In this document: positions 28,170 through 47,815 of the stretch, piece after piece
Layout: each line of letters opens with the position of its first letter
How positions within the stretch are numbered: the stretch's first letter is position 1
NCBI RefSeq assembly: GCF_026016465.1
Contig: NZ_CP100390.1
Coordinates: 2,022,001-2,086,000 of the forward strand
DNA: 64,000 nt
Direction: 5' to 3'
DNA from: Alkalimarinus alittae
GTDB taxonomy: Bacteria > Pseudomonadota > Gammaproteobacteria > Pseudomonadales > Oleiphilaceae
Program-made: the position numbers and the translations under genes
Notes under the pieces: model-generated
Told to the model about the DNA's origin: nothing
Seen by the model: the letters and a program-made list of their open reading frames with translations, nothing else
The model's database searches: none

Positions 28170-28256
28170 GCCTGGGTGGTGGAATTGGTAGACACCCGAG
28201 ACTTAAAATCTCGTGTCCGTAAGGGCGTGCCGGTTCGACCCCGGCTCCAGGCACCA
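28170..28256 (+). tRNA. tRNA-Leu(TAA), island insertion site
   Basis: 87-nt class II tRNA with encoded CCA. Acceptor GCCTGGG/CCAGGC, anticodon TAA in the loop CTTAAAA, long variable arm TGTCCGTAAGGGCGT, T arm CCGGTTCGACCCCGG. The accessory island with P4-type integrases starts right after it, so its 3' end is the likely attachment site. I found no second copy of the 3' end in the window. Confidence 0.97.
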
Positions 28257-28438: not shown

Positions 28439-29649
28439 ATGAAAAGACAGAAATGGCCTGGAAAATTAACAGAAGCACAAATCAAGAAGCTTAAGCCAAA
28501 AGAACGCCTTATAAGGTTTCCGATGGTGGAGGTCTTCATTTACTTATTCATCCTAATGGATCCTGTTATTGGCGTGTAAAATACCGTATTGATAATAAAG
28601 AGAAAATTTTATCTTTGGGGGTATATCCAGGGACAAAATTAGAGGAGGCCCGAAACAAAACTGTGGAAGCTAAAAAGCTACTAGAAGAAGGGACTGATCC
28701 TGCTGTTCAGAAAAGGCGAAATAAAATGCGCCAGGTAGAGAATTGTTTCAATGCCATTGCTCTCGAGTGGTGGGAGAAAGAGCGGAGTGTTTGGACTACT
28801 GACCATGCGAATCGGGTAAAACAGACTCTAGAGCGAGAGGCTTTTCCAGTTATTGGTGAAATGCCCATTGATAAAATAACTGCACAAGATTGCCTACAGG
28901 TCGTCCGTAATATTGAGGCTCGTGGTGCACTGGATGTTGCCAGTCGCGTCAAGCAACGAATGAGTGCGGTATTTCGTTACGCAATTTATACTGGGTATGT
29001 AGACGGTAATCCGGTTGATGCACTCAGGGATGTGATAAAAAGCAGAAAAGTTCGCCATCAAAAAGCGTTAGACCTGCCTTTACTCCCGAAATTTTTAAAT
29101 GATGTTGATGAATGCAATAGGCTAACCGAGGTGACTCGGCTAGGTCTCAAATTGTTGGTTCATTGTTTTGTTCGCCCTGGTGAGCTTAGGGCTGCACGCT
29201 GGTCTGAAATAGACTGGAATAACGCGGAGTGGCGAATTCCTGCTGAGCGAATGAAAATGCGAGAAACCCATATTGTCCCTCTCGCCCCTCAAACAATCAC
29301 AATTCTCATCGAGTTGCAGGCAAAATCCGGCAAATTTGAGTACTTGTTCCCTGGCTATCACAATCCTCGTACTCATATGTCAGAGAATGCCCTGACATAC
29401 GCAATACGTAGGCGCCTTAATTTTGATGCAACCAGTCATGGCTTTCGAACGGTGGCATCGACTGTACTTAATGAGAATGGATTTAGGCCTGATATTATTG
29501 AGCGGCAACTAGCGCACTCTGAGCGAAATAGGGTTAGAGCAGCCTATAATAGAGCCCTTTATCTTAATGAGCGCCGTGATATGATGGAGTGGTGGGCTAG
29601 TTACCTAGCTGAATTGCTACGACAGTACAGGGATAGCAATACTAAATAA
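28439..29649 (+). pseudogene. P4-type tyrosine integrase, frameshifted near its N-terminus
   Basis: Site-specific recombinase of the kind that integrates islands into tRNA genes. ATG 28439 opens MKRQKWPGKLTEAQIKKLKP, but the frame runs into a stop after about 45 codons. The expected continuation YKVSDGGGLHLLIHPNG appears in another frame from about 28511, and a TAA lies upstream in that second frame. A single-base loss around 28505-28511 explains this. The remaining 344 residues keep the catalytic parts: RPGELRAARWSEIDW, SHGFRTVAS, LAHSERN and Tyr in AAYNRALYL. It is closely similar to the integrase at 42.5 kb. It could be inactive, or start late at TTG 28615 without the arm-binding domain. 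Confidence 0.85.
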
Positions 29650-29734: not shown

Positions 29735-29773
29735 AATAATACCTCCTTACATTAACTGCTACTCGTGTGGAGG
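29735..29773 (+). promoter_or_regulatory. alpA leader with CCTCC box facing the ribosome site
   Basis: AATAATACCTCC at 29735-29746 is followed by the alpA ribosome site GGAGG at 29769-29773. CCTCC can pair with GGAGG and hide it. The same AATAATACCTCC lies before the second alpA (30957-30968), and a shorter form lies at 43794-43804. Confidence 0.5.
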
Positions 29774-29778
29774 TCATT

Positions 29779-29973
29779 ATGAGTGCACAAACAACAACAT
29801 ACCCACGTATGTTGCGTATCAATGATGTTAGCAGCATCACTGGTCTGTCTAGAAGTACTTTTTATAGAAACGTAGAGGCCAATAGCTTTCCTAAACCGGT
29901 ACATATCACTCGCCGCCGTATTGCTTTGCGCGAACTTGATATTATGAACTGGTTCGAATCACTGGAGGCCTGA
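29779..29973 (+). CDS. AlpA-family DNA-binding regulator (copy 1)
   Basis: Small transcription regulator of the AlpA/P4 Vis type, which controls integrase or excision genes of tRNA-linked islands. It has 64 residues and is essentially one winged helix-turn-helix: MLRINDVSSITGLSRSTFYR, then FPKPVHITRRRIALRELDI and ending NWFESLEA. ATG 29779 follows GGAGG by five bases. The TGA stop is one base before the ATG of the integrase-like gene, so the two form an operon. A CCTCC box in the leader may control translation. Confidence 0.88.
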   Translation: MSAQTTTYPRMLRINDVSSITGLSRSTFYRNVEANSFPKPVHITRRRIALRELDIMNWFESLEA

Positions 29974-29974
29974 T

Positions 29975-30568
29975 ATGCACATGGAATATAAGGAGCAGGC
30001 GTCCTGCTCGTTAAATTCGCTAGATGTGGCTAAGGCAGCAAACCTAGTAGAGGAAGCATACAGGATTTCCCAAGTAGCCAAATTTGCCGTTGAGCTCTAC
30101 ATCTATATGCCGATGAACCCGAAAATCTTTGTTAAAATCCAATGGGATGATGTTGATCTAGACAATGCTTTGTTGAGAAGTCGTTCAGGTGACAACCTGC
30201 TTTTGATTCCTATTTCTACGAGAGCGATCAGATTGTTAGAGGCATTAAAGTCGATTACGGGTGCTAATCGGTTTGTCTTTTCGAAAAATAAAACATCAAA
30301 CAACCATATTGCAGAGAGCCAGCTAACCAATGCTCTAAGAAAAACGGGGTTCTATTTGCCAGTCTCAAAAATATTAGAATTGGCTAAATATACACTTGTT
30401 GAAAAATTCGCAGACTGGGATGCGGTCGCCATTCAATTTGGAGTGATCTCAGTATCCGAGAGTATCTGGAGAGATGATGATCGACTTGATGAGCGTAGAG
30501 TATTGACTCAATGGTGGGCAGATTACATCGATAACCTTAGGTTATCGCTACGATATTTTCTTCCTTAA
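29975..30568 (+). CDS. Catalytically dead integrase-like protein coupled to alpA
   Basis: 197-residue protein that lines up with the catalytic half of the neighbouring integrases but has lost their active site. The strand/helix pattern IQWDDVDLDNALLRSRSG, NLLLIPISTRAIRLLEALK and SQLTNALRKTGF matches the integrase WSEIDF, FVIPLSDAAIAILTRL and TLNAAIRRLGF. The ending RRVLTQWWADYIDNLR matches RTEFMSWWSEYLADVR. The catalytic Arg region reads NPKIFVKIQ, the HxxR box reads PVSK, and the Tyr position reads SIWRDDDRL. It has no arm-binding N-terminus. ATG 29975 is one base after the alpA stop, and GGAGG in the alpA tail serves as its ribosome site. It may be a regulator of recombination or a decaying gene. 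Confidence 0.65.
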   Translation: MHMEYKEQASCSLNSLDVAKAANLVEEAYRISQVAKFAVELYIYMPMNPKIFVKIQWDDVDLDNALLRSRSGDNLLLIPISTRAIRLLEALKSITGANRFVFSKNKTSNNHIAESQLTNALRKTGFYLPVSKILELAKYTLVEKFADWDAVAIQFGVISVSESIWRDDDRLDERRVLTQWWADYIDNLRLSLRYFLP

Positions 30569-30592
30569 CTGCTCTAGATTGGATTTAACATA

Positions 30593-30628
30593 GCCAGTAA
30601 TGGATCTATTGATCTGTTATTGGCTTTT
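30593..30628 (+). terminator. Terminator of the alpA1-dead integrase unit
   Basis: GCCAGTAATGGATC, short loop, GATCTGTTATTGGC, then TTTT. Eleven of 14 positions pair. It lies 25 bp after the stop. Confidence 0.55.
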
Positions 30629-30956
30629 GTGCAATTTGATCCTTATAAATAAACAAGGCAACCTATTAAATCTGACTTAGACAATAAGAAAGCAAGTCTA
30701 TTCGTCAAATAAATCAATGAAATACACAGTAAAGACATTTATAGCAGAGATGTGGGAATGAGTGAAGCAGCGTACTTCTCACCGTTTAATAACTTAAGCG
30801 CTGTGATTTTGTAGTAAAAATATCAAATTAAATATGCCTAAGTAAATCAATAGGATATAGATGTGAGAGCGGTTGTTTAGTTGCTTATTTTTAATATAGT
30901 CGTTTCGAGTGCGAATATAGCAATCTTTTAGCCGATTTACCCACTACGTTAAGCTC
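30629..30956. other. AT-rich gap before alpA2
   Basis: About 330 bp of AT-rich sequence between the first and second alpA units. No gene is supported here. It presumably carries the alpA2 promoter. Confidence 0.4.
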
Positions 30957-30993
30957 AATAATACCTCCACATTAATCGAAACCTACTGTGGAG
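30957..30993 (+). promoter_or_regulatory. alpA2 leader with CCTCCAC box facing the ribosome site
   Basis: AATAATACCTCC at 30957-30968 is shared exactly with the alpA1 leader. Here CTCCAC (30965-30970) pairs perfectly with GTGGAG (30988-30993), the ribosome site of alpA2. Confidence 0.5.
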
Positions 30994-30999
30994 TACAAA

Positions 31000-31188
31000 A
31001 TGCCTCAATCAAATACCGCCCAATTACTCAAGATCCCTCAGGTTACTAAAATAACGGGGTTATCTCGCAGCACTATTTATAGACTGATCAAAGATGGAGA
31101 ATTTCCTGGGCCAATTCGAATCACTAGGCGACGGGTTGCCTGGCGGCAAGATGATATTCAGTCTTGGTTTGACAGCATAGGAGCGTAA
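31000..31188 (+). CDS. AlpA-family DNA-binding regulator (copy 2)
   Basis: 62-residue AlpA-type regulator, paralogue of copy 1. The helix-turn-helix reads LLKIPQVTKITGLSRSTIYR, followed by FPGPIRITRRRVAWRQDDI and SWFDSIGA. ATG 31000 follows TGTGGAG; the longer frame to GTG 30988 starts inside the ribosome site and is unlikely. The integrase gene begins four bases after its stop, so it probably regulates and is co-transcribed with that integrase. Confidence 0.88.
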   Translation: MPQSNTAQLLKIPQVTKITGLSRSTIYRLIKDGEFPGPIRITRRRVAWRQDDIQSWFDSIGA

Positions 31189-31192
31189 GATA

Positions 31193-32437
31193 ATGACTAG
31201 ACGAACGATTCCAAGCCGCCTGACAGATGCAACCATCCGCAATGCCCAGGATAAGGGCAAAAAGTATAAACTTTATGATGGGGGAGGTTTATTCCTGGAG
31301 GTAAGCAAAACGAAAATTGACGGCAAGAATATTAAGCGTTGGAAGATGAGGTACAAATTTGCTGAAAAGGAGCGGTGTATTACTATTGGTCCTTACTTGC
31401 CTAATAATAAGGGCGTTTCCCTGTTAGAGGCGCGAGAAGCAGCTTTGGAAGCTAAAGCAATGCTGCTGAGAGGTGTTAACCCCTCCTTGAGAATTGGAAA
31501 TAAGGGGAATGCCTCAACTGATAGCAAATTCAAATCAGTTGCCAAAGCATGGCACGAAAATGAGTTAGAGAAATGGAAGACAGGGCACGCCGCTGATATA
31601 TGGGACTCGTTGGAGAAAGATGTTTTTCCAACATTTGGTGATGTTCCAATACACGAGATCTCAACACAGGATTGCCTGATTATTTTGCAAAAAATTGAAA
31701 AACGGGGAGCATTAGAAACGTGTAAAAAAATTAAGCAGAGAATGTCTTGTATATTTGATCATGGAATTATATTTGATTTTATAAAGTCAAATCCTGTGGG
31801 GCCTCTACGAAAATTTGGTAAAAAGCGCAAAACAAAGGGCTACAAAGCAATAGCAGTCTCAGAACTTAGCTCATATCTTAATGCTGTTGAAACGAGTATA
31901 CGTATAGAAGAGTTAACCAGACTGGCGTTACAGCTCTCAGTTGAAACGTTTGGCAGGTCAGCTGAGGTTAGAGAGGGGACATGGAGCGAAATTGATTTTG
32001 AGAAAAAGCTCTGGCATATACCCAAAGAGCGAATGAAGAATAATTTGGATTTCGTTATACCTCTTAGCGATGCCGCTATAGCTATATTGACAAGGCTCAG
32101 GGATATCAATGGTCGCCGAGAATTGATATTTGCAAGCACTATAAATCCTAAAAAGCCGATCAGTGAGGGGACTTTAAATGCAGCTATTAGGCGACTAGGA
32201 TTTGATGGTACAACTCACGGATTTAGGAAAATCGCGTGCACAACGCTTTATGAAGTAGGGTATCCTCACCCAGCTATAGAACGCCAGTTATCGCATGTGG
32301 AGAAAAACAAGATTGTTGGCATTTATAATAAGGCAAAATATTTAAATAAGAGAACAGAGTTTATGTCTTGGTGGTCCGAGTACCTAGCTGATGTTAGGCT
32401 AGGGAAGAGGGAGCCGATTGAATATGTAATTGATTAA
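31193..32437 (+). CDS. P4-type tyrosine integrase (intact)
   Basis: Site-specific recombinase of 414 residues. The N-terminal DUF4102 arm-binding domain (about 1-95) has KYKLYDGGGLFLEVSK and the IGPYLP turn. The core-binding domain is at about 105-200 and the catalytic domain at about 210-400. Catalytic residues are Arg in TFGRSAEVREGTWSEIDF, HGFRK, LSHVEKN and Tyr in IYNKAKYL. It is more distant from the other two integrases, which resemble each other. It lies four bases after alpA2 in an apparent operon. Confidence 0.9.
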   Translation: MTRRTIPSRLTDATIRNAQDKGKKYKLYDGGGLFLEVSKTKIDGKNIKRWKMRYKFAEKERCITIGPYLPNNKGVSLLEAREAALEAKAMLLRGVNPSLRIGNKGNASTDSKFKSVAKAWHENELEKWKTGHAADIWDSLEKDVFPTFGDVPIHEISTQDCLIILQKIEKRGALETCKKIKQRMSCIFDHGIIFDFIKSNPVGPLRKFGKKRKTKGYKAIAVSELSSYLNAVETSIRIEELTRLALQLSVETFGRSAEVREGTWSEIDFEKKLWHIPKERMKNNLDFVIPLSDAAIAILTRLRDINGRRELIFASTINPKKPISEGTLNAAIRRLGFDGTTHGFRKIACTTLYEVGYPHPAIERQLSHVEKNKIVGIYNKAKYLNKRTEFMSWWSEYLADVRLGKREPIEYVID

Positions 32438-33233: not shown

Positions 33234-35249
33234 TTAGTACAAGCGTCCGTGAATAGGGGATAGCGAGTATTCAGGTAGGTTTGTTGATTGAGTTGCCATT
33301 TCAACAAGTGAAACCTGGTGAAGGCGTGAATTTGTTCCGCCCTTGGCAATCACATGGAGCTTTTCATCTTGCGCATCACTAACCGAAGTATCCGTTACGT
33401 CGCCTAGGATTAATATTTCTCGGAGAGCACCATTATCCTTTGAAATAGAATAGAGGCGTATATCGAAAGCTGTTGACTCGGAAGTATTCAAATTTTGCTC
33501 AATCAATAAGGAGTGAGAATTAGATGTTAAGTCAAAATAAGGCTTCAATTGCGCGTTGGTTATGTTCTGTGCAATATCAAGGTTGCGGTCAAAAAGTGAT
33601 ACGGTGGCTTCATTGATAGATGTTGAGTTGCTGTCTCTATAGGATACAGCCAATACATCCCCGTGGACGTGAATATGTCCGTGGTATTTATCTTCGAATA
33701 TCGGAGAAAATGCTCTCGTGCTTAGGTTATACGAATAGATATGGTCTTTGAAATCTGAAATATCAGAAATATCTCGAATTTCAAAGATTAAATAATCTCC
33801 GTGCAGTGATATATCAGTCACTGATGTTTTTTCTTCTATGTCAAAGAGTTTGTTTATTGATAGGTCGGTTCTATCAACTTGATAGACCGCAGAGTCGGCA
33901 AAAAACAGACTAATGTTCGTTCCCAATTGATTGAAAGTGGGTAGATAAATCGAGGTCTCGGCGGAGAATATCGGCGTGCCGGGCAGTTGATAGCCTGACT
34001 GGAGTAAATCTTCAGCTGTGACTAAATACAAGGATCTATCTCTATTGGCCAAAGCGTATATAGCGCTTTGGGATTCGCCTTTCGGACCTGTTTGAATCAG
34101 GCTCCTGAGGTCAAGTTCGGTACCGCTATCTAGGTTTGCGTCGACAAAACCAACTCTACCCGTAGTGCCATCAGTTTTTCCTCCGTACATCAAAGAAACT
34201 TGGCCTGAATAGTCATAAAGTGCGCCCGTAGGGGTTATATCTAATTCAGTGGGTACAACTTCGTCATTTTCGCTATCATCAATGAGAATTCTAGCTATAT
34301 AGTCGTCACCTCCTATTCCACATAACCCGTCTTCTCCTGATAGCTGGGTAAACGTAAGGTCATTGGAGGTAGAAACAAATGATTTTGCATAATAGCAGGG
34401 GGTCGAAGAGCCTTGACCGCTCAAGTTTCGTAAGGAACCATCGGTTCTGTTAAATGCCACTAGCTTCTTATCATCTTGGCTAATGATGATGTTATTGTCT
34501 AAAGATCCCGTTTCAATATTGAGAACAAGGGGTTTAAGGGTGTATTCAGGTGCGAGCTGGTCTTCTACCACTGTTGCTAGGGCGTTGTTTTCATAACTGT
34601 AGCTAATCAGCTGTTCATCATAAAAAGCGGTGAGTAACTCGAAATTTGGAGCGCTGAGAGACTTAAATGTGTCTGTATACGTTATTCCAAAGTTTTCCAG
34701 TGATTCGCTAAAGTGCTTTTTAGCACCGCTGCGATCGACCAAGGAATTTATTCCTAAATGATTAATGAGTTCGATTACGTCTTCATCTAGGGAAAAAACT
34801 GAAGCTGAATCGCTGAAGTCGATGCTCATTCCACTCGCTAAATTATGAATCGCTTGTGGGATCTTAATTCCATCACTTACGTCTTGATTCTCATCCAATG
34901 ATTGCAGAAGTTGAATAGCGTTCAATGCAGAAGTAGATGCAATATCTGAGTCAGTCGTAAATAGATCCAATGGTGTAACGATGGCTTTTCCTAAGGATTC
35001 TCCCAGGTATATATTTCCTATATAAAACCTGATGGTTTCTCCTTCTAGGTAATCGAAATAACCTTGCTCATCAGTATAAGCCTCTTGGCTATCTGTAACG
35101 TATCTCAGGTTCGCGACAGCTGAATCAATGAATTGGCCTTGGTTGATACTGGGTTCAGGGCTGGGGGCAGGGGTGGATGAGCCACCGCCACACCCTGATA
35201 TCAGTGCTGTAACAGAAATTAATGCTGTTGGAATTGCCAGTTTTTTCAT
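33234..35249 (-). CDS. Large secreted lipoprotein, probable beta-propeller
   Basis: 671-residue exported lipoprotein. The lipobox LISGC (Cys20) is followed by a Gly/Ser/Pro-rich linker (GGGSSTPAPSPEPS). An N-terminal module GQFIDSAVANLRYVTD...GYFDYLEGETIRFYIG is of a kind often seen in marine gammaproteobacterial surface lipoproteins. Residues 200-670 contain repeated short beta segments with Asp- and Gly-rich turns, consistent with a propeller-like surface domain. No enzymatic motif is visible. It is upstream of the smaller lipoprotein gene. Location in the integrase island suggests it is cargo. Confidence 0.65.
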   Translation of the reverse strand: MKKLAIPTALISVTALISGCGGGSSTPAPSPEPSINQGQFIDSAVANLRYVTDSQEAYTDEQGYFDYLEGETIRFYIGNIYLGESLGKAIVTPLDLFTTDSDIASTSALNAIQLLQSLDENQDVSDGIKIPQAIHNLASGMSIDFSDSASVFSLDEDVIELINHLGINSLVDRSGAKKHFSESLENFGITYTDTFKSLSAPNFELLTAFYDEQLISYSYENNALATVVEDQLAPEYTLKPLVLNIETGSLDNNIIISQDDKKLVAFNRTDGSLRNLSGQGSSTPCYYAKSFVSTSNDLTFTQLSGEDGLCGIGGDDYIARILIDDSENDEVVPTELDITPTGALYDYSGQVSLMYGGKTDGTTGRVGFVDANLDSGTELDLRSLIQTGPKGESQSAIYALANRDRSLYLVTAEDLLQSGYQLPGTPIFSAETSIYLPTFNQLGTNISLFFADSAVYQVDRTDLSINKLFDIEEKTSVTDISLHGDYLIFEIRDISDISDFKDHIYSYNLSTRAFSPIFEDKYHGHIHVHGDVLAVSYRDSNSTSINEATVSLFDRNLDIAQNITNAQLKPYFDLTSNSHSLLIEQNLNTSESTAFDIRLYSISKDNGALREILILGDVTDTSVSDAQDEKLHVIAKGGTNSRLHQVSLVEMATQSTNLPEYSLSPIHGRLY

Positions 35250-35961: not shown

Positions 35962-36720
35962 TTACTTTAAGTGATCATCTTCCGTCAATGTTGTCATTAG
36001 TTTTCTCATCGATTCTCCTTTCAGATTTAGCTTGTGAGCATTGTGTAATAGCCGATCCAAAATGGCGTCAGCCAATGTTGGGTCAGCTATAAAATCATGC
36101 CACTGTGTCAGCGGTAGCTGACTCGTAAATAGGGTCGATTTGCTATTGTGCCTATCCTCCATAATCTCTAACAGATCATTCCGTTGACTTTGAGTTAGCG
36201 GCTCTAGCCCCCAGTCGTCAATAATGAGTAAATCCATCTTCGCTATCTGGGCCAGTAGCTTTAGATAACTGCCATCTCCGTGTGAGATCGTTAACTGTTC
36301 GAACAACCGACTCGCCCTGAAGTAACGCACTCGATAACCTTGATGACAGGCGTGATGACCTAAGGCGCAAGCCAGATAGGTTTTACCGCAGCCTGTTGGC
36401 CCTGTAATCACTAGGTTCTGGTGCCGTTTGATCCACTCATTGCTCTGTAGTCCTGCAACGGTGCTTTGGCCCAAGCCTCTGGGGTGACTGTAATCAACAT
36501 CTTCTAAGCGGGCTGGAACTTTTAGATGCGCTGCTTTTAACAGCCTTTGTAATCGCTTATCGTTGCGATACGTCATCTCGTATTGGATTAGTAGCCCTAT
36601 GCGCTCAGAGAAGCTGAGACCATCATAGGTATTGGGTTGATTAAACTGCTGTTCTAAGGCATCTGCTAGCCCCAGTAGTTTCAGCTGACGAAGTTGTTGT
36701 AGGCTTTGTATTTGTAGCAT
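35962..36720 (-). CDS. istB: IS21-family helper ATPase IstB
   Basis: AAA+ ATPase, related to DnaC, that regulates target choice and strand transfer by IstA. Walker A is GPTGCGKTYLACALG and Walker B is MDLLIIDDWGLEPL. The later motifs STLFTSQLPLTQWHD and LADAILDRLLHNAH are typical. The frame runs back to 36780 and would overlap istA. The start MLQIQSLQQLRQL at ATG 36720, with AGGAAAAGGAA upstream, matches family N-termini, giving 252 residues. Confidence 0.93.
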   Translation of the reverse strand: MLQIQSLQQLRQLKLLGLADALEQQFNQPNTYDGLSFSERIGLLIQYEMTYRNDKRLQRLLKAAHLKVPARLEDVDYSHPRGLGQSTVAGLQSNEWIKRHQNLVITGPTGCGKTYLACALGHHACHQGYRVRYFRASRLFEQLTISHGDGSYLKLLAQIAKMDLLIIDDWGLEPLTQSQRNDLLEIMEDRHNSKSTLFTSQLPLTQWHDFIADPTLADAILDRLLHNAHKLNLKGESMRKLMTTLTEDDHLK

Positions 36721-36751
36721 AAGTGATTCCTTTTCCTGAGTGTCTGATCGG

Positions 36752-38320
36752 TTAGTGGTAGTAATCTGATCCACGTACATTCGGGTGGTTGGGTGTGCTG
36801 GGTTGATTCGGACTGAGAGGTAACGGTAACTGATCCATATTGCTTTCGAGGATCGACTTAACGCTTTTTAATCGAGGGGATTTAATATGTATTGCTCGCT
36901 GACACGCTGACACGCTGACACGCTGACACGCTGCCTCTAGCCGTGCGGGCGTGTACTGTTTTGACAAGTTGAGTAAGCCTAGACATGCGCGATACGCCTG
37001 CTCAGGATGGCGTTTCTGCTCAATAATATCTTTAACGAGCTGTTGTGTTGATTCCCCGATACGACGCCCCCAGTTCATTAACCTCTCAGGAGTCCATGTC
37101 TTATGTCGTTGGTGGGCTTGAGGCATATGATTTGCGTCTGTCGTAAAGCTTCCTGGTCGCTGGCTTCGGCCATGCCTTGCGATCTGCTGCCCTTTGAAGA
37201 ACACGGCAATACCTTCGCGTGTCGCATGTATTTCAACCTCATGTTTAACTAAGTGGTGCGGGACTGAGTAAAAGTGTTTATCAAATTCAAAATGATAATC
37301 GATGTTAATTCTGGCGAGCTTAAATTCGGTATATTCATAACGTGTACTGGGCAGCGGTCTGAGTGCTGGTTTATCAAGTAATTCGAACTGACTTAACCGA
37401 CTACCAGGCAGTTTTTTAAACGGTCGCTGATTAAGGTCAGCTAGCAGGGCTTTGATTGCGAGATTAAGCTCTGCGAGGGTAAAGAAGGTTTGGTGTCGCA
37501 GTCGTGCCAGTATCCATCGCTGTACGATCAATACTGCATTTTCTGCTTTGGCTTTATCTTTGGGTTTTAGCGGTCTGGCTGGGATAATTACCGTTTTGTA
37601 GTGTGTTGCCAGGTGCTGATAGCTCCTGTTTATTTCAGGCTCATAACGGCACGGTTTACTGACAGCGCTTCTTAGCTGGTCGGGTACCACGACCTCCGGT
37701 ACACCACCAAAGAACTCGAATGCTTTTACGTGCGCATCAATCCAGTCAGCCTTTTGCTGCGACCATGAAGCTAGGGCAAAGGTATAGTGGCTCGCACCCA
37801 GTGTCGCAACGAAGATCTGGGCTGGGTGTATTTCACCAGTGTTTGGATTGACGATCGGAACCGTCGCCCCGCTGTAATCAACAAACAGCTTTTCACCTGC
37901 CTGATGGATATGACGCATCGAGCGTTGTTGTTTCTTGATCCATTGACGATAGTAATTACAGTATTGGGAAAACTGGTAGCCTGCATCGCCATAGGCTTGC
38001 TTATACTCTTCCCACAACAACTGCTTAGTAACGCCTTTACGCTTAAGCTCTTGATGAATCTGTGCATAGTCAGGTTCAACACGGCCATGCCTATCTTTGA
38101 TCTTAGGCTCTGGGAATAAGCGCTGTTCCAACTCACTTTCACTCAGCTCAGACGGTAGCGGCCAGGTAAGACCGACTTCGTTGGCTCGACGAGCATATAG
38201 AGAGACCGTGCCGACGCCAATATTAAGGCAGCGGGCAATTTTTCTATGACTCAATTTAGCTTCAAATTTGAGGCGGAGAATATCTTTGATTTGTCGCATT
38301 GGTAATCTCTTGCTTGGCAT
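36752..38320 (-). CDS. istA: IS21-family transposase IstA
   Basis: DDE transposase. The N-terminal helix-turn-helix (LSHRKIARCLNIGVGTVSLY) is followed by the integrase core with acidic residues in FVDYSGATVPI, VVPDQLRSAV and KDKAKAENAVL. I start at ATG 38320 (MPSKRLPMRQ), which has a GAGGG site five bases upstream, giving about 522 residues. The extension to 38377 lacks support. Near the C-terminus an 8-bp unit is repeated four times in tandem, inserting VSVSACQR between two CQR copies while keeping the frame. Confidence 0.93.
   Translation of the reverse strand: MPSKRLPMRQIKDILRLKFEAKLSHRKIARCLNIGVGTVSLYARRANEVGLTWPLPSELSESELEQRLFPEPKIKDRHGRVEPDYAQIHQELKRKGVTKQLLWEEYKQAYGDAGYQFSQYCNYYRQWIKKQQRSMRHIHQAGEKLFVDYSGATVPIVNPNTGEIHPAQIFVATLGASHYTFALASWSQQKADWIDAHVKAFEFFGGVPEVVVPDQLRSAVSKPCRYEPEINRSYQHLATHYKTVIIPARPLKPKDKAKAENAVLIVQRWILARLRHQTFFTLAELNLAIKALLADLNQRPFKKLPGSRLSQFELLDKPALRPLPSTRYEYTEFKLARINIDYHFEFDKHFYSVPHHLVKHEVEIHATREGIAVFFKGQQIARHGRSQRPGSFTTDANHMPQAHQRHKTWTPERLMNWGRRIGESTQQLVKDIIEQKRHPEQAYRACLGLLNLSKQYTPARLEAACQRVSVSACQRAIHIKSPRLKSVKSILESNMDQLPLPLSPNQPSTPNHPNVRGSDYYH
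36897..36932. repeat. Four tandem 8-bp repeats inside istA
   Basis: GACACGCT occurs four times in a row at 36901-36932, preceded by a half copy CGCT. Three extra units equal 24 bp, which preserves the reading frame. Gain or loss of one unit would shift the istA C-terminus. Confidence 0.9.
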
Positions 38321-38634
38321 CGTACCCTCAGGCTCAAAAAGCACTAAGAATACAATACTAAAAACGATTAAAATCAATGCGTAGGAAGAGTCTGCGGTCG
38401 AAGGTGATCGGTGTCTGCGACAACTTGATCACTCTCTGCGATAACTATCGAAAAGTGATCATCATCGATCGCAGGAAGCGATCACGTTCAATCGCAGAAG
38501 GTGATCAACTTGGATCGTAGAGGGTGATCATGATCATTCGGAATATGCAACAATTACCGAGGACCGCATCCATATAAATTAGCTGCACTGATTTTCATGC
38601 ATACATTGATAAACCCGCAAGAGCTGACGTCACT

Positions 38635-40308
38635 TCACTGGAGGCAAGTACATTTAGACAGAAGCGAGGTATCACTGTAGAAATACTCGGTGAGTGCCGC
38701 AGAAGCAGATTGACTATCTTTATTTAACAGATTGATATCTTGAGTCGCATCATTGCAGGTTAAATTCAACAGGCTGGTAACCTCTTCTAGGGTGTTTCTG
38801 ATTGGAGTGCCTGATAAGAGCAACCTCTTATCAATGGTATTAGCGATGCGAGAGACTGCTTTGGTCCGTTTGGCTTTCGGGTTTTTGAGATAATGTGCCT
38901 CATCTGCTATCAATAGGTCTATAGAGTTATTCATTAATGAATCAGTTAGTTTTCCGCCAAGACGCTCGTTAACTCTGTTTAACTTTTTGGTAGCTTTCGT
39001 GGTCAGTCCTGAAAGTTTTACAGGCATTGTAATGGTTAGGCGCCAGTCTCCGTTTTCCAATACTCTCCATGCAATGATCTCATCATCTAAATTTGCTGAG
39101 GAAATTATATCCTTGTCGCATTGTTCTGAAATATTAATAATTCCAGGTCTTTCAACTAAGACGTCATAGGTAATTATTGTCCAGCGTGTGGTTAGGCATA
39201 TCTCGTCCAAATTAGATGTAATATGTTGTATCGTTTCCTCAGGGCCAATCCAGTCTTTTATTTCTCTGTCCCAAACATAGCGTGCATTTGCTGGGGCGAT
39301 TATCAGTATCCGCTCAGCATGAATCCCTGCAGCGAACCCTAGGGTTTGAACTGTCTTGCCCGTCCCCATTTCGTCTCCATTGAGAATGCGGCCTCTGTTG
39401 GCTGTAGCGAACTCAATGCCTTCCCTTTGATACTGGTGAAGTACCTTGCCATTGCGAGCCGCTTGATTCCAGCCAGGAATTGCTGAGTAATCTAATGTTA
39501 GCGCTCTCGCTTTATTTTCAGGTGTGTGTTCAATTTCATGGGGGATGCCTAAACTATTGAGAAAATTCAGCCAGCTGTCTAAGTCCTCAGAAGCAATGTT
39601 AATAATACCATCCCAAGAAATAGGTGTTCTAATACCCATAGGGTAGTTGCCAGACCATTTCTATGTTTTGTCTAGTCTTTCTCGCAATAAATAGTGGCTA
39701 GGGTCAACAATAGGGTTGCAACTAAGTTGAGTAACTCGCCCTAGTTTGGATACGGTGATAGGTAATGAGGTTTTATTGATAAATTCAATGGTTGCGCCTT
39801 TTTCCATATATTCATTTAATACCTGATCAATATTAGATGAGATAAGAGTTGGAGAGTTTAACCACCATTGTGACGCATTCAGCGAGCTGTTGGTAACCCA
39901 AGTGTGTTTCAGTTCAGCTCTAGCGATCTCTGGGTTGTCATGATAGAAGTAACCTGCGTCATCATTGAGACGAACCACTTTAATTACTGTTCCTGTGAAT
40001 TGGCTATTAACTGGCATAATTTCATAGCTACGAATTTTTTTCTTTTGATTTGAAAATTCTAAGAATTTTTTTAAGTTTTCTGTAGTGTTCAGATTCCAAA
40101 ATATGCCATTCCAGTTACCATTCAACTTTTTAACTCTATTATATAGATAGCTATGCTGCTCATCGTCAGGGTTCCATTTGATCCCTGTATCACCGTGTAG
40201 GAATAATATGCCTGTTTGTTGCTCGGGAAGCATATTCTCAGCGGCGATAGCAGTTATATAGTCGTCTTCATTTTTATCTGTGTTATTAATGGTTGGTTTT
40301 AAAGTCAT
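38635..40308 (-). pseudogene. HARP/SNF2-type helicase gene, interrupted and truncated
   Basis: Two open frames (40308-39661 and 39639-38635) lie in the same reading frame, separated by one TAG and seven sense codons (KWSGNYP). The first, 215 residues, includes LNGNWNGIFWNLNTTENLKK, like a HARP annealing-helicase domain. The second, 334 residues, carries SNF2 ATPase motifs: LHQYQREGIEF (Q motif), GDEMGTGKTVQTLGF (Walker A), LLIADEAHYLKN (DEAH box) and LLLSGTPIRNT (motif III). The C-terminal helicase lobe is missing, and the frame stops about 80 bp before the IS21 element. No continuation is visible beyond the IS. Probably a decayed SMARCAL1/RapA-like DNA translocase, unless the TAG is read through. 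Confidence 0.75.
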
Positions 40309-42359: not shown

Positions 42360-42490
42360 ACCTACCTTAATAGTCACCAATTAGAGCAACCTAACGCGAC
42401 AGCTATATTCCAACCCCACTAATTGTCATTGCATATCCTCAGAAAAGCGTAAATTAATCTCTTCATTAATATGATTTGGAGAGGGCTCAT

Positions 42491-43684
42491 ATGAGCAGGC
42501 AACGCTTACCTGGAAAGTTAACTAATACGAAAATTAAGAGTTTTAAGGCACAAGAAAAACAGTACAAAATAAGCGACGGTGGTGGGCTTTATTTAATAGT
42601 TGGCACAAATGGTTCTCGCTATTGGAGACTAAAGTATTTTATTGATAGAAAAGAGAAAAGCCTGTCGATTGGTATATATCCAGACGTGACTTTGGCAGAT
42701 GCTAGGGAAAAGGTACTTGCGGCTAAAAAATTAGTTACTCAACGCATTGATCCGTCAGTACATAGAAGGCGTGAACAGCAACGCCGAGCTGAGAATGATT
42801 TTAAATCAATTGCCATTGAATGGTGGAATAAGAAGTCAGGCCTTTGGACTGTAGATCATGCTGCAAGTGTAAAAAGAACATTAGAGAAAGAGGCTTTTCC
42901 TATTATTGGTGATATGCAAATAGACCAAATAACATCACAAGATTGTTTGTCTGTTGTACGTCATATTGAAGCAAGGGATGCGCTAGATGTTGCTGGCCGT
43001 GTGAAACAGCGAATGGGCTCAATATTCCGTTATGCTATTTATACTGGATACGTAAATAATAATCCTGTTGATGCCCTCAAGGATGTCATTAAGGCACGTA
43101 AAGTGAAGCATCAGAAGGCTTTAGATCTAGACCTGCTACCTAAATTTCTAAATGATGTTGATGTGAGTGAGCGATTAACATTTGTTACCAAACAAGCGAT
43201 TAAATTCTTAGTTCATACTTTTGTACGTTCAGGTGAGCTTAGGGCTGCGAAATGGTCTGAGATAGATTTTATTAAGCAGGAATGGAGGATTCCAGCTGAA
43301 CGTATGAAAATGAAAGAAATGCACATCGTTCCTCTTTCCTCTCAAGCATTAGACATTCTAAAAGAGCTCCATTCTAAAACCGGAAAACGAGAGTATTTAT
43401 TCCCTGGGCAGCACAACCCCAGGCTTTACATGTCTGAAAATACGGTGACATATTCAATACGGAAAAGGTTGCACTACGACGCCACCGCTCACGGATTTAG
43501 AACGGTCGCCTCAACGATACTCAATGAAAACGGATTTCGTTATGACATTATTGAACGGCAGTTAGCACATGTTGAACGTAACAGCGTTCGAGCGGCCTAT
43601 AACAGGGCGATGTACCTAAAGGATCGATGTGAAATGATGGCTTGGTGGGGTAATCATTTAGAGCAGTTGCGGAAAAGCTATTAA
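42491..43684 (+). CDS. P4-type tyrosine integrase (intact, paralogue of the 28.4-kb pseudogene)
   Basis: 397-residue site-specific recombinase. The arm-binding domain (1-90) has QYKISDGGGLYLIVGTNGSR and IGIYPDVTLADARE. The catalytic domain has Arg in TFVRSGELRAAKWSEIDF, AHGFRTVAS, LAHVERN and Tyr in AAYNRAMYL. ATG 42491, after GGAGAGGG, is better than TTG 42476. It is very like integrase 1, and the relation extends downstream, where both are followed by a CCTCC-containing leader. No tRNA 3'-end copy lies upstream, so it is not obviously a tandem insertion at tRNA-Leu. Confidence 0.92.
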   Translation: MSRQRLPGKLTNTKIKSFKAQEKQYKISDGGGLYLIVGTNGSRYWRLKYFIDRKEKSLSIGIYPDVTLADAREKVLAAKKLVTQRIDPSVHRRREQQRRAENDFKSIAIEWWNKKSGLWTVDHAASVKRTLEKEAFPIIGDMQIDQITSQDCLSVVRHIEARDALDVAGRVKQRMGSIFRYAIYTGYVNNNPVDALKDVIKARKVKHQKALDLDLLPKFLNDVDVSERLTFVTKQAIKFLVHTFVRSGELRAAKWSEIDFIKQEWRIPAERMKMKEMHIVPLSSQALDILKELHSKTGKREYLFPGQHNPRLYMSENTVTYSIRKRLHYDATAHGFRTVASTILNENGFRYDIIERQLAHVERNSVRAAYNRAMYLKDRCEMMAWWGNHLEQLRKSY

Positions 43685-43793
43685 ATAATAAGCAAACAGC
43701 TTTGCAAGCTAGAAGTGGGGGATAGCTGCGTTTAGTCCTTATGGGGGTGAATATAGAGACTATTTGATCGTTATTACCACTGTTAGTCGTTTG

Positions 43794-43952: not shown

Positions 43953-44526
43953 TAGTAATTGCGTTGAGCATATTACGTGCAATAATTTTAAATTTAAGCT
44001 TCAGCATTAGACATCGTCAATACACATTGATCTCGACTGTTTAATGACGTTTAGAAAGGGTGAAAATAGCAACCTTTTATCCCTTTTTAGAAGGGGAACC
44101 AAGTCAATACTATCTCTTTAAATCAATAGACCTATTTAGAGATAGTAATAATGAAGACAAATTGTCAACGGTAACTGAATTTTGACCCACTTTGGCGGTT
44201 AAACGGTAATTTAAAATTGACCCACCCTTAGCGATTTTATCGTTAATTTATTTAATCTTATTTTGAGCTGATACTGGTACTATTCCCGTCGCTTATTTCC
44301 CTTTTAATTGATAACTCTATGCTGACGCCGTTATTTATTTAGACAAAAAATGCGTATTTGACTGAAGGCCATTTTTGATGAACTGCTTCATGTAGAGCTA
44401 TTTTCACTATCAAATTGAATTATGAGCTGAATATAGCTATTATTCGGCTCATATGTAGAGTTGAATGATGATTGTATTCGGCTCATTCTAAGAGATAGTT
44501 AAGCTTAACTCTGGCGTAAGAAATAG
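43953..44526. other. Gap at the right edge of the island
   Basis: About 570 bp without a supported gene. It contains an inverted repeat, ACTATCTCT with AGAGATAGT at 44109-44146, and the solitary IS21-like end described separately. No tRNA-Leu 3'-end repeat is seen. Confidence 0.5.
44163..44228. mobile_element. Solitary IS21-like terminal fragment
   Basis: TGTCAACGGTAACTG begins a segment with two 25-bp direct repeats: 44169-44193 (CGGTAACTGAATTTTGACCC...) and 44204-44228 (CGGTAATTTAAAATTGACCC...). This layout is typical of the ends of one IS21 subgroup. No transposase gene or second end is found, so it is a remnant or a solo end. It is different from the intact IS21 element in the window. 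Confidence 0.5.
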
Positions 44527-47014: not shown

Positions 47015-47815
47015 ATGTTCAGTATTTTTAAGTCCAAACCATTAATAGAGCAGTCGAGTGCGGACTGGATATTTGAAGCATACGAGTGGGCGTTGACACA
47101 TTTTGATAGCCAAGAGTTTTTTGCGCGTAGTCGGCTTATTCAGCCCACTAATGAGTACTTTGCAGGCAGCGTGAGTAGTGTGCATGAAAAAGCTGAAACG
47201 GTTTATACACATACACGCCATTATGCGGGTTTAACGCATTGGCCATTTAAACTACAAGCGCCTGAATCTTATCAATATAAGCCATCTCCCCAGTTGGTGA
47301 TTGGGGGGAATGCTGAAATGCTTGCAAGGAATTCAGTAACGAATAGTATGTCTACTATTGCGAGCGAAGAGCTTTTGTATTTGACCTACAACCCTCAGCA
47401 AACACTGAAGCCGGAAGACTTATCATCTAGTTTTGCGCATATTATGGCTCAATATCTGGTTATTCAATCTCAGTATTTTCCACCGGGTGGGCCTGATTAT
47501 TTCGCAGAAGGTACAGAATTACTGGCCATATTTATGGGTTTTGGCGTGATGTTTGCCAATTCAGCTTACACGTTTCGGGGTGGTTGTGGCAGTTGTTATA
47601 ATGGGCAGTCTAATCGCCAGGCAACACTGTCAGAAAGCGAGGTGCTATTTTCTATGGCGCTTTATTGCAAGCTTAAACAGATACCCACCTCTGACGCGAC
47701 TCGATACCTTAAAAAACACTTAAAATCAGGCTATAAGCGCGCGTTAAAACAGATTAATCGCGAGCCAGAAAAATTAAACGCATTATTATCGTTTAGGCAT
47801 ATCGCTCGTGACTAA
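47015..47815 (+). CDS. Uncharacterised protein upstream of a YgjP-like gene
   Basis: 266 residues, no family I can name. No signal peptide. A possible metal site lies in RGGCGSCYNGQSNRQATLSE (C-x-x-C). Other stretches are LSSSFAHIMAQYLVI, PPGGPDYFAEGTELLAIFMGF and a basic C-terminus KKHLKSGYKRALKQINREP. The stop overlaps the next start by 8 bp, so it is translated together with the YgjP-like metallopeptidase. Confidence 0.65.
   Translation: MFSIFKSKPLIEQSSADWIFEAYEWALTHFDSQEFFARSRLIQPTNEYFAGSVSSVHEKAETVYTHTRHYAGLTHWPFKLQAPESYQYKPSPQLVIGGNAEMLARNSVTNSMSTIASEELLYLTYNPQQTLKPEDLSSSFAHIMAQYLVIQSQYFPPGGPDYFAEGTELLAIFMGFGVMFANSAYTFRGGCGSCYNGQSNRQATLSESEVLFSMALYCKLKQIPTSDATRYLKKHLKSGYKRALKQINREPEKLNALLSFRHIARD

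Follow-up and report, generated by a model that had tools for sequence, protein, structure and literature searches.

Regulators that keep the fold of tyrosine recombinases after losing catalysis are already known. MrpR of SPbeta has been proven to be a repressor, and its recombinase function is lost (PMC10516654). Regulation by integrases themselves is also documented. In P4, both the integrase Int and the RDF Vis, a member of the AlpA family, repress int (PMC7286903, PMC2951348), and excision of KplE1 is lowered by excess integrase (PMC2951348). Given this circuitry, an integrase-like protein coupled to an AlpA regulator would fit in well. Here, we describe such a protein, P0001, encoded in an island of Alkalimarinus alittae. 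The window analyzed is a stretch of 64,000 nucleotides of contig NZ_CP100390.1 (positions 2,022,001 to 2,086,000); coordinates below are positions within this window, and the tRNA, integrase, and alpA genes, as well as P0001 and its signals, are on the + strand.

Genomic Context

Comparison with sibling species placed the island site at a tRNA-Leu(taa) gene (28170..28256). In three sibling species this tRNA gene continues to the genes found in the window at ~47025-47420, without the island integrases and, in one of the three, with two other genes in between. The order of genes in the island is int1, alpA1, P0001, alpA2, int2, cargo, an IS21-type pair, an SNF2-type fragment, a LemA-family gene, and int3. 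The integrases int1 (28615..29649), int2 (31193..32437), and int3 (42476..43684) form one supported clade with an island integrase from another family of the order. The catalytic residues of int1 are intact, and its Arm domain (28439-28615) lies upstream, one base out of frame owing to a 1-base shift near 28508; the only integrases with intact frames are therefore int2 and int3. A search of the genome for another copy of the end of the tRNA gene (attR) gave no match, and the island may therefore have lost the ability to excise. Together with the frameshift in int1, this absence suggests that recombination in the island may be on its way out, P0001 included.

Other features of the region were noted. 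A 177-bp noncoding stretch (44324-44499) shares 93% identity with the DNA that immediately follows this tRNA-Leu gene in sibling genome G004 and may mark the right end of the island. A 671-aa predicted lipoprotein without a Pfam match is encoded inside the island (33234-35249), and an SNF2-type helicase gene with a short, apparently truncated frame (38635-39639) adjoins the IS21-type pair (35962-38377).

The gene alpA1 (29767..29973) encodes an AlpA-family regulator (Pfam PF05930, 6.4e-14), and, within the genomes searched, alpA1 and alpA2 (30988..31188) are closer to each other (50%) than to any other gene. The original prediction described P0001 as translationally coupled to alpA1 and followed by its own hairpin, with an intact integrase at the same place behind alpA2, and our analysis bore out the gene arrangement, the hairpin, and the signals for coupling. 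The frame of P0001 spans exactly 29975..30568, with 197 codons free of stops and frameshifts. Its ATG at 29975 comes one base after the TGA of alpA1 (29971-29973), a GGAGG ribosome-binding site lies within the alpA1 tail (29964..29968), six bases 5' of the ATG, and the start falls in frame at a domain boundary, the linker between core-binding and catalytic domains. Directly 3' of alpA2, int2 starts four bases on. Judged by these signals, P0001 is predicted to be made from the AlpA message by translational coupling. A long hairpin followed by TTTT (30576..30642), located 3' of the P0001 stop, folds with an MFE of -29 kcal/mol (z -3.5) and is the likely terminator of the alpA1-P0001 unit; it was absent from the list produced by a simple terminator scan.

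Sequence comparison also uncovered an element, AATAATACCTCC...GTGGAGGT, upstream of alpA1 (29735..29775) and of alpA2 (30958-30995), which is a candidate AlpA operator or start-site hairpin. The ATAATACCTCC element, present at 29735 and 30958, occurs again at 43793 behind int3, where no alpA is recognizable. A search for an AlpA relic behind int3 recovered the upstream motif and no protein match; this third copy is possibly an AlpA operator or the relic of a third alpA.

Sequence and Predicted Structure

In BLASTP searches, P0001 matched the catalytic domains of two island integrases, int2 with 25% identity over 177 aa (E 3e-16) and int1 with 23% (E 4e-12), in alignments that begin at the end of the core-binding domain. 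Pfam gave no match to P0001 even at E 10, a PDB sequence search gave none, and the NCBIfam integrase model PRK09692 matched at 3e-08, far below the cut-off of the model. The catalytic columns are 98-100% conserved among the 57 active relatives in the int family alignment, and measured against these P0001 keeps none of the six residues R-K-H-R-H/W-Y (R to N, K deleted, H to S, R to L, H to V, and Y to W). Since the catalytic columns are altered in this way and the protein begins at the catalytic domain, past the core-binding domain and without the Arm and core-binding DNA domains, P0001 is a dead relative of P4-type integrases that consists of the catalytic domain only. The homology to the catalytic half of integrase 2 and the loss of the catalytic Arg, HxxR box, LSH, and Tyr had both been proposed in the original prediction and were thus confirmed, and structure prediction supports the recombinase fold. 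AlphaFold2, run with an input that included the sequences of 50 relatives and so biases towards the family fold, returned a recombinase catalytic-domain fold for P0001 (pLDDT 86.2, pTM 0.83). The best PDB structure match of the model was the Brujita integrase (Z 16.3), and XerA (Z 15.3) and the lambda Int core (Z 13.5) also matched. SroF, a dead recombinase-fold repressor, was among the matches as well (Z 9.7), and MrpR/YopR was found by Foldseek.

The surface of the protein has changed. The net charge of P0001 is +1 vs a mean of +5.5 in 78 relatives, and its DNA-contacting residues are lost. The best-kept parts are the core and the C-terminal helix DERRVLTQWWADYIDNL; in tyrosine recombinases, the C-terminal helix packs against the neighboring subunit. 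With no Arm or core-binding domain, the DNA contacts gone, and a charge near zero, stand-alone binding of P0001 to att sites is unlikely, which speaks against the att-site occupancy once suggested as its role.

Loss of the Active Site and Retention of the Frame

Neutral change was simulated from int1, int2, and int3, with stops scored and indels left out of the count. Not one simulated lineage in any run had lost the active site without acquiring a stop codon. At a divergence d of about 0.3, which matches the observed retention of structural columns, a frame with 0 stops had a probability of 0.003-0.006, and a loss that took in all nine columns of the active site one of about 0.001. The hydrophobic core of P0001 remains hydrophobic in 38 of 43 columns (p 0.003-0.01 at d about 0.3), and 23 of the 40 conserved non-active-site columns are kept vs 0 of the 9 in the active site (Fisher p 0.0015). 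The codon score of P0001, 0.092, falls within the 0.090-0.105 of int1-3 and exceeds the 95th percentile for spurious ORFs (mean -0.04). Truncated integrase ORFs found elsewhere (L008, L226, L237, and L240; 192-222 aa) retain all six catalytic residues. Taken together, these results argue that the frame of P0001 was kept during the loss of catalysis and that plain neutral decay is very unlikely. These indirect tests place the retention of the frame in the time when catalysis was lost rather than in the present. The noncatalytic role that had been proposed from the intact frame was therefore upheld in part: the decay simulation and the fold are in its favor, but no orthologue was found in the searched sets, and the kept function may have belonged to a longer ancestor.

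Distribution of Related Proteins

The original prediction looked to orthologues next to alpA in other genomes for support. No short dead AlpA-coupled form was found in the own genome or in 97 relatives, 163 family, 390 order, and 369 class genomes (about 900 genomes in the orthologue search), nor in genome contigs, viral contigs (queried with P0001, int2, and profile A2), plasmids, or phages. Among 240 distinct catalytic domains, only P0001 and a family from genus g109 were dead. The 123 AlpA ORFs, many of them with short flanks, included no further case of an AlpA gene directly followed by an integrase. G080, the nearest int relative, has the usual int-gene-alpA order, and the gene next to its alpA overlaps it, so that a gene coupled to the end of alpA is nothing exceptional. 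In the tree, P0001 sits on a long branch (about 5 changes per column), and AU tests of a direct sister relation to int2 or to int1-3 gave p 0.20 and 0.19, respectively, which neither favors nor excludes either placement.

Four of the five best cross-genome matches of P0001 were full-length dead integrases of genus g109 (up to 60 bits, 31-34% identity), with a fifth member at 50 bits and 29%. The members (L179, L180, L182, L183, and L185) have intact frames, occupy syntenic chromosomal positions in five species, and still have all three domains (Arm, core-binding, and integrase). In all five the K, the first H, and the Y are replaced and the H/W is changed to Asn or Asp, R2 being kept, and no AlpA neighbor was found. 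Their dN/dS is 0.08-0.17 (four members compared); hence a dead integrase of this superfamily can persist under purifying selection. Constraining P0001 to a clade with the g109 dead integrases costs 0.18 log units (AU p 0.475), with long branches involved, and the similarity may come from long-branch attraction. At L206-L210 (G396, G433, G415, G451, and G317; e.g., L207:7496-8710), the full-length dead integrase-like gene, syntenic in five species of one genus with a dN/dS of about 0.1, gives the impression of an integrase that was domesticated and became a regulator on the chromosome.

Proposed Function

We favor, with a probability of about 0.4, a model where P0001 is a former P4-type catalytic domain, coupled to AlpA, that tunes the Int/AlpA system of the island by protein contact. 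The domain would have lost DNA cleavage and, with the Arm and core-binding domains missing and the active-site surface no longer basic, probably also stand-alone att-site binding. P0001 would then pair with the active integrase(s) of the island or with AlpA through its recombinase fold and C-terminal helix, and integrase activity or integrase autorepression might be lowered or tuned in step with AlpA. Contact with Int or AlpA is favored as the mode of action because the core and C-terminal helix are best kept and DNA binding by P0001 itself is unlikely. The partner, the direction of the effect, and the function of the present short form are all things that we infer. It is rather doubtful that P0001 is an anti-integrase derived from an integrase, that is, a stand-alone catalytic fold, free of DNA-binding domains and made from the AlpA message, that replaces a subunit in the recombination complex and so inhibits or tunes it.

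P0001 could also be a C-terminal remnant, non- or barely functional, of a full-length dead regulator that bound DNA; the active site would have disappeared under selection in that protein, and the DNA-binding half would have been deleted later. This reading is the most serious rival and only somewhat less probable than the favored model. The preponderance of full-length dead integrases among the best cross-genome matches, the low cost of a clade with g109, the dating of the kept frame to catalytic loss rather than to the present, and the eroded state of the surrounding island all agree with it. However, a start placed in frame at the domain boundary, with a well-placed ribosome-binding site and coupling, is not what a remnant would suggest, nor are an intact codon signature and 197 codons without interruption, and the likeness to the dead family may itself be an artifact of long branches. 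An ordinary integrase pseudogene, decaying neutrally with its frame open by chance, would be at home among the other damaged mobile genes and would agree with the absence of orthologues from the searched sets. This is highly improbable, as simulated decay did not produce the observed pattern and truncated ORFs of similar size keep their full set of catalytic residues.

A DNA-binding repressor of the MrpR/SroF type, acting on operator DNA of the island, is unlikely. Both proteins are among the structure matches, the repressor activity of MrpR, which lost its recombinase function, is proven, and the AATAATACCTCC elements conserved ahead of alpA1 and alpA2 may serve as operators. Nevertheless, the core-binding domain of MrpR, residues 1-84 (PMC10516654), has no counterpart in P0001, which has also lost its DNA-contacting residues and is neutral in charge. 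That P0001 is still a recombinase, with an active site relocated or supplied in trans, is scarcely credible: the fold is kept, but there is no Tyr at the nucleophile position, neither Arg is present, and the hairpin Lys is deleted.

Comparison with Known Systems

P0001 resembles the P4-type/PRK09692 integrases (int1, int2, int3, and G080) in the homology and fold of its catalytic domain, in the C-terminal WWADYLD helix, and in the nearby AlpA-type gene, but it differs in having no Arm or core-binding domain and none of the six catalytic residues. The P4 pair of Int and Vis is alike in joining an Int-type and an AlpA-type protein that act on int, although the P4 integrase is active and full-length. 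The g109 dead integrases, at 28-31% identity to P0001, share the lost active site and intact frames; they differ in being full-length and syntenic on the chromosome, in keeping R2, and in having no AlpA neighbor that we could find. MrpR (YopR) of SPbeta and SroF of phi3T share with P0001 the tyrosine-recombinase fold, the loss of catalysis, and a gene carried on a mobile element, whereas MrpR is a DNA-binding protein with a core-binding domain and with K and Y still in place, and P0001 is a catalytic domain only, coupled to AlpA and belonging to another integrase family. Dead recombinase-fold regulators are thus already known, and the catalytic-domain-only AlpA-coupled form was found nowhere else in the searched sets. 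The cited examples of dead tyrosine recombinases turned regulators, MrpR and SroF, come from SPbeta-like phages; the AlpA-coupled form described here, together with the conserved g109 family, suggests a wider route from enzyme to regulator that includes P4-type integrases and, if true, would give islands a simple way to hold integrase activity in check.
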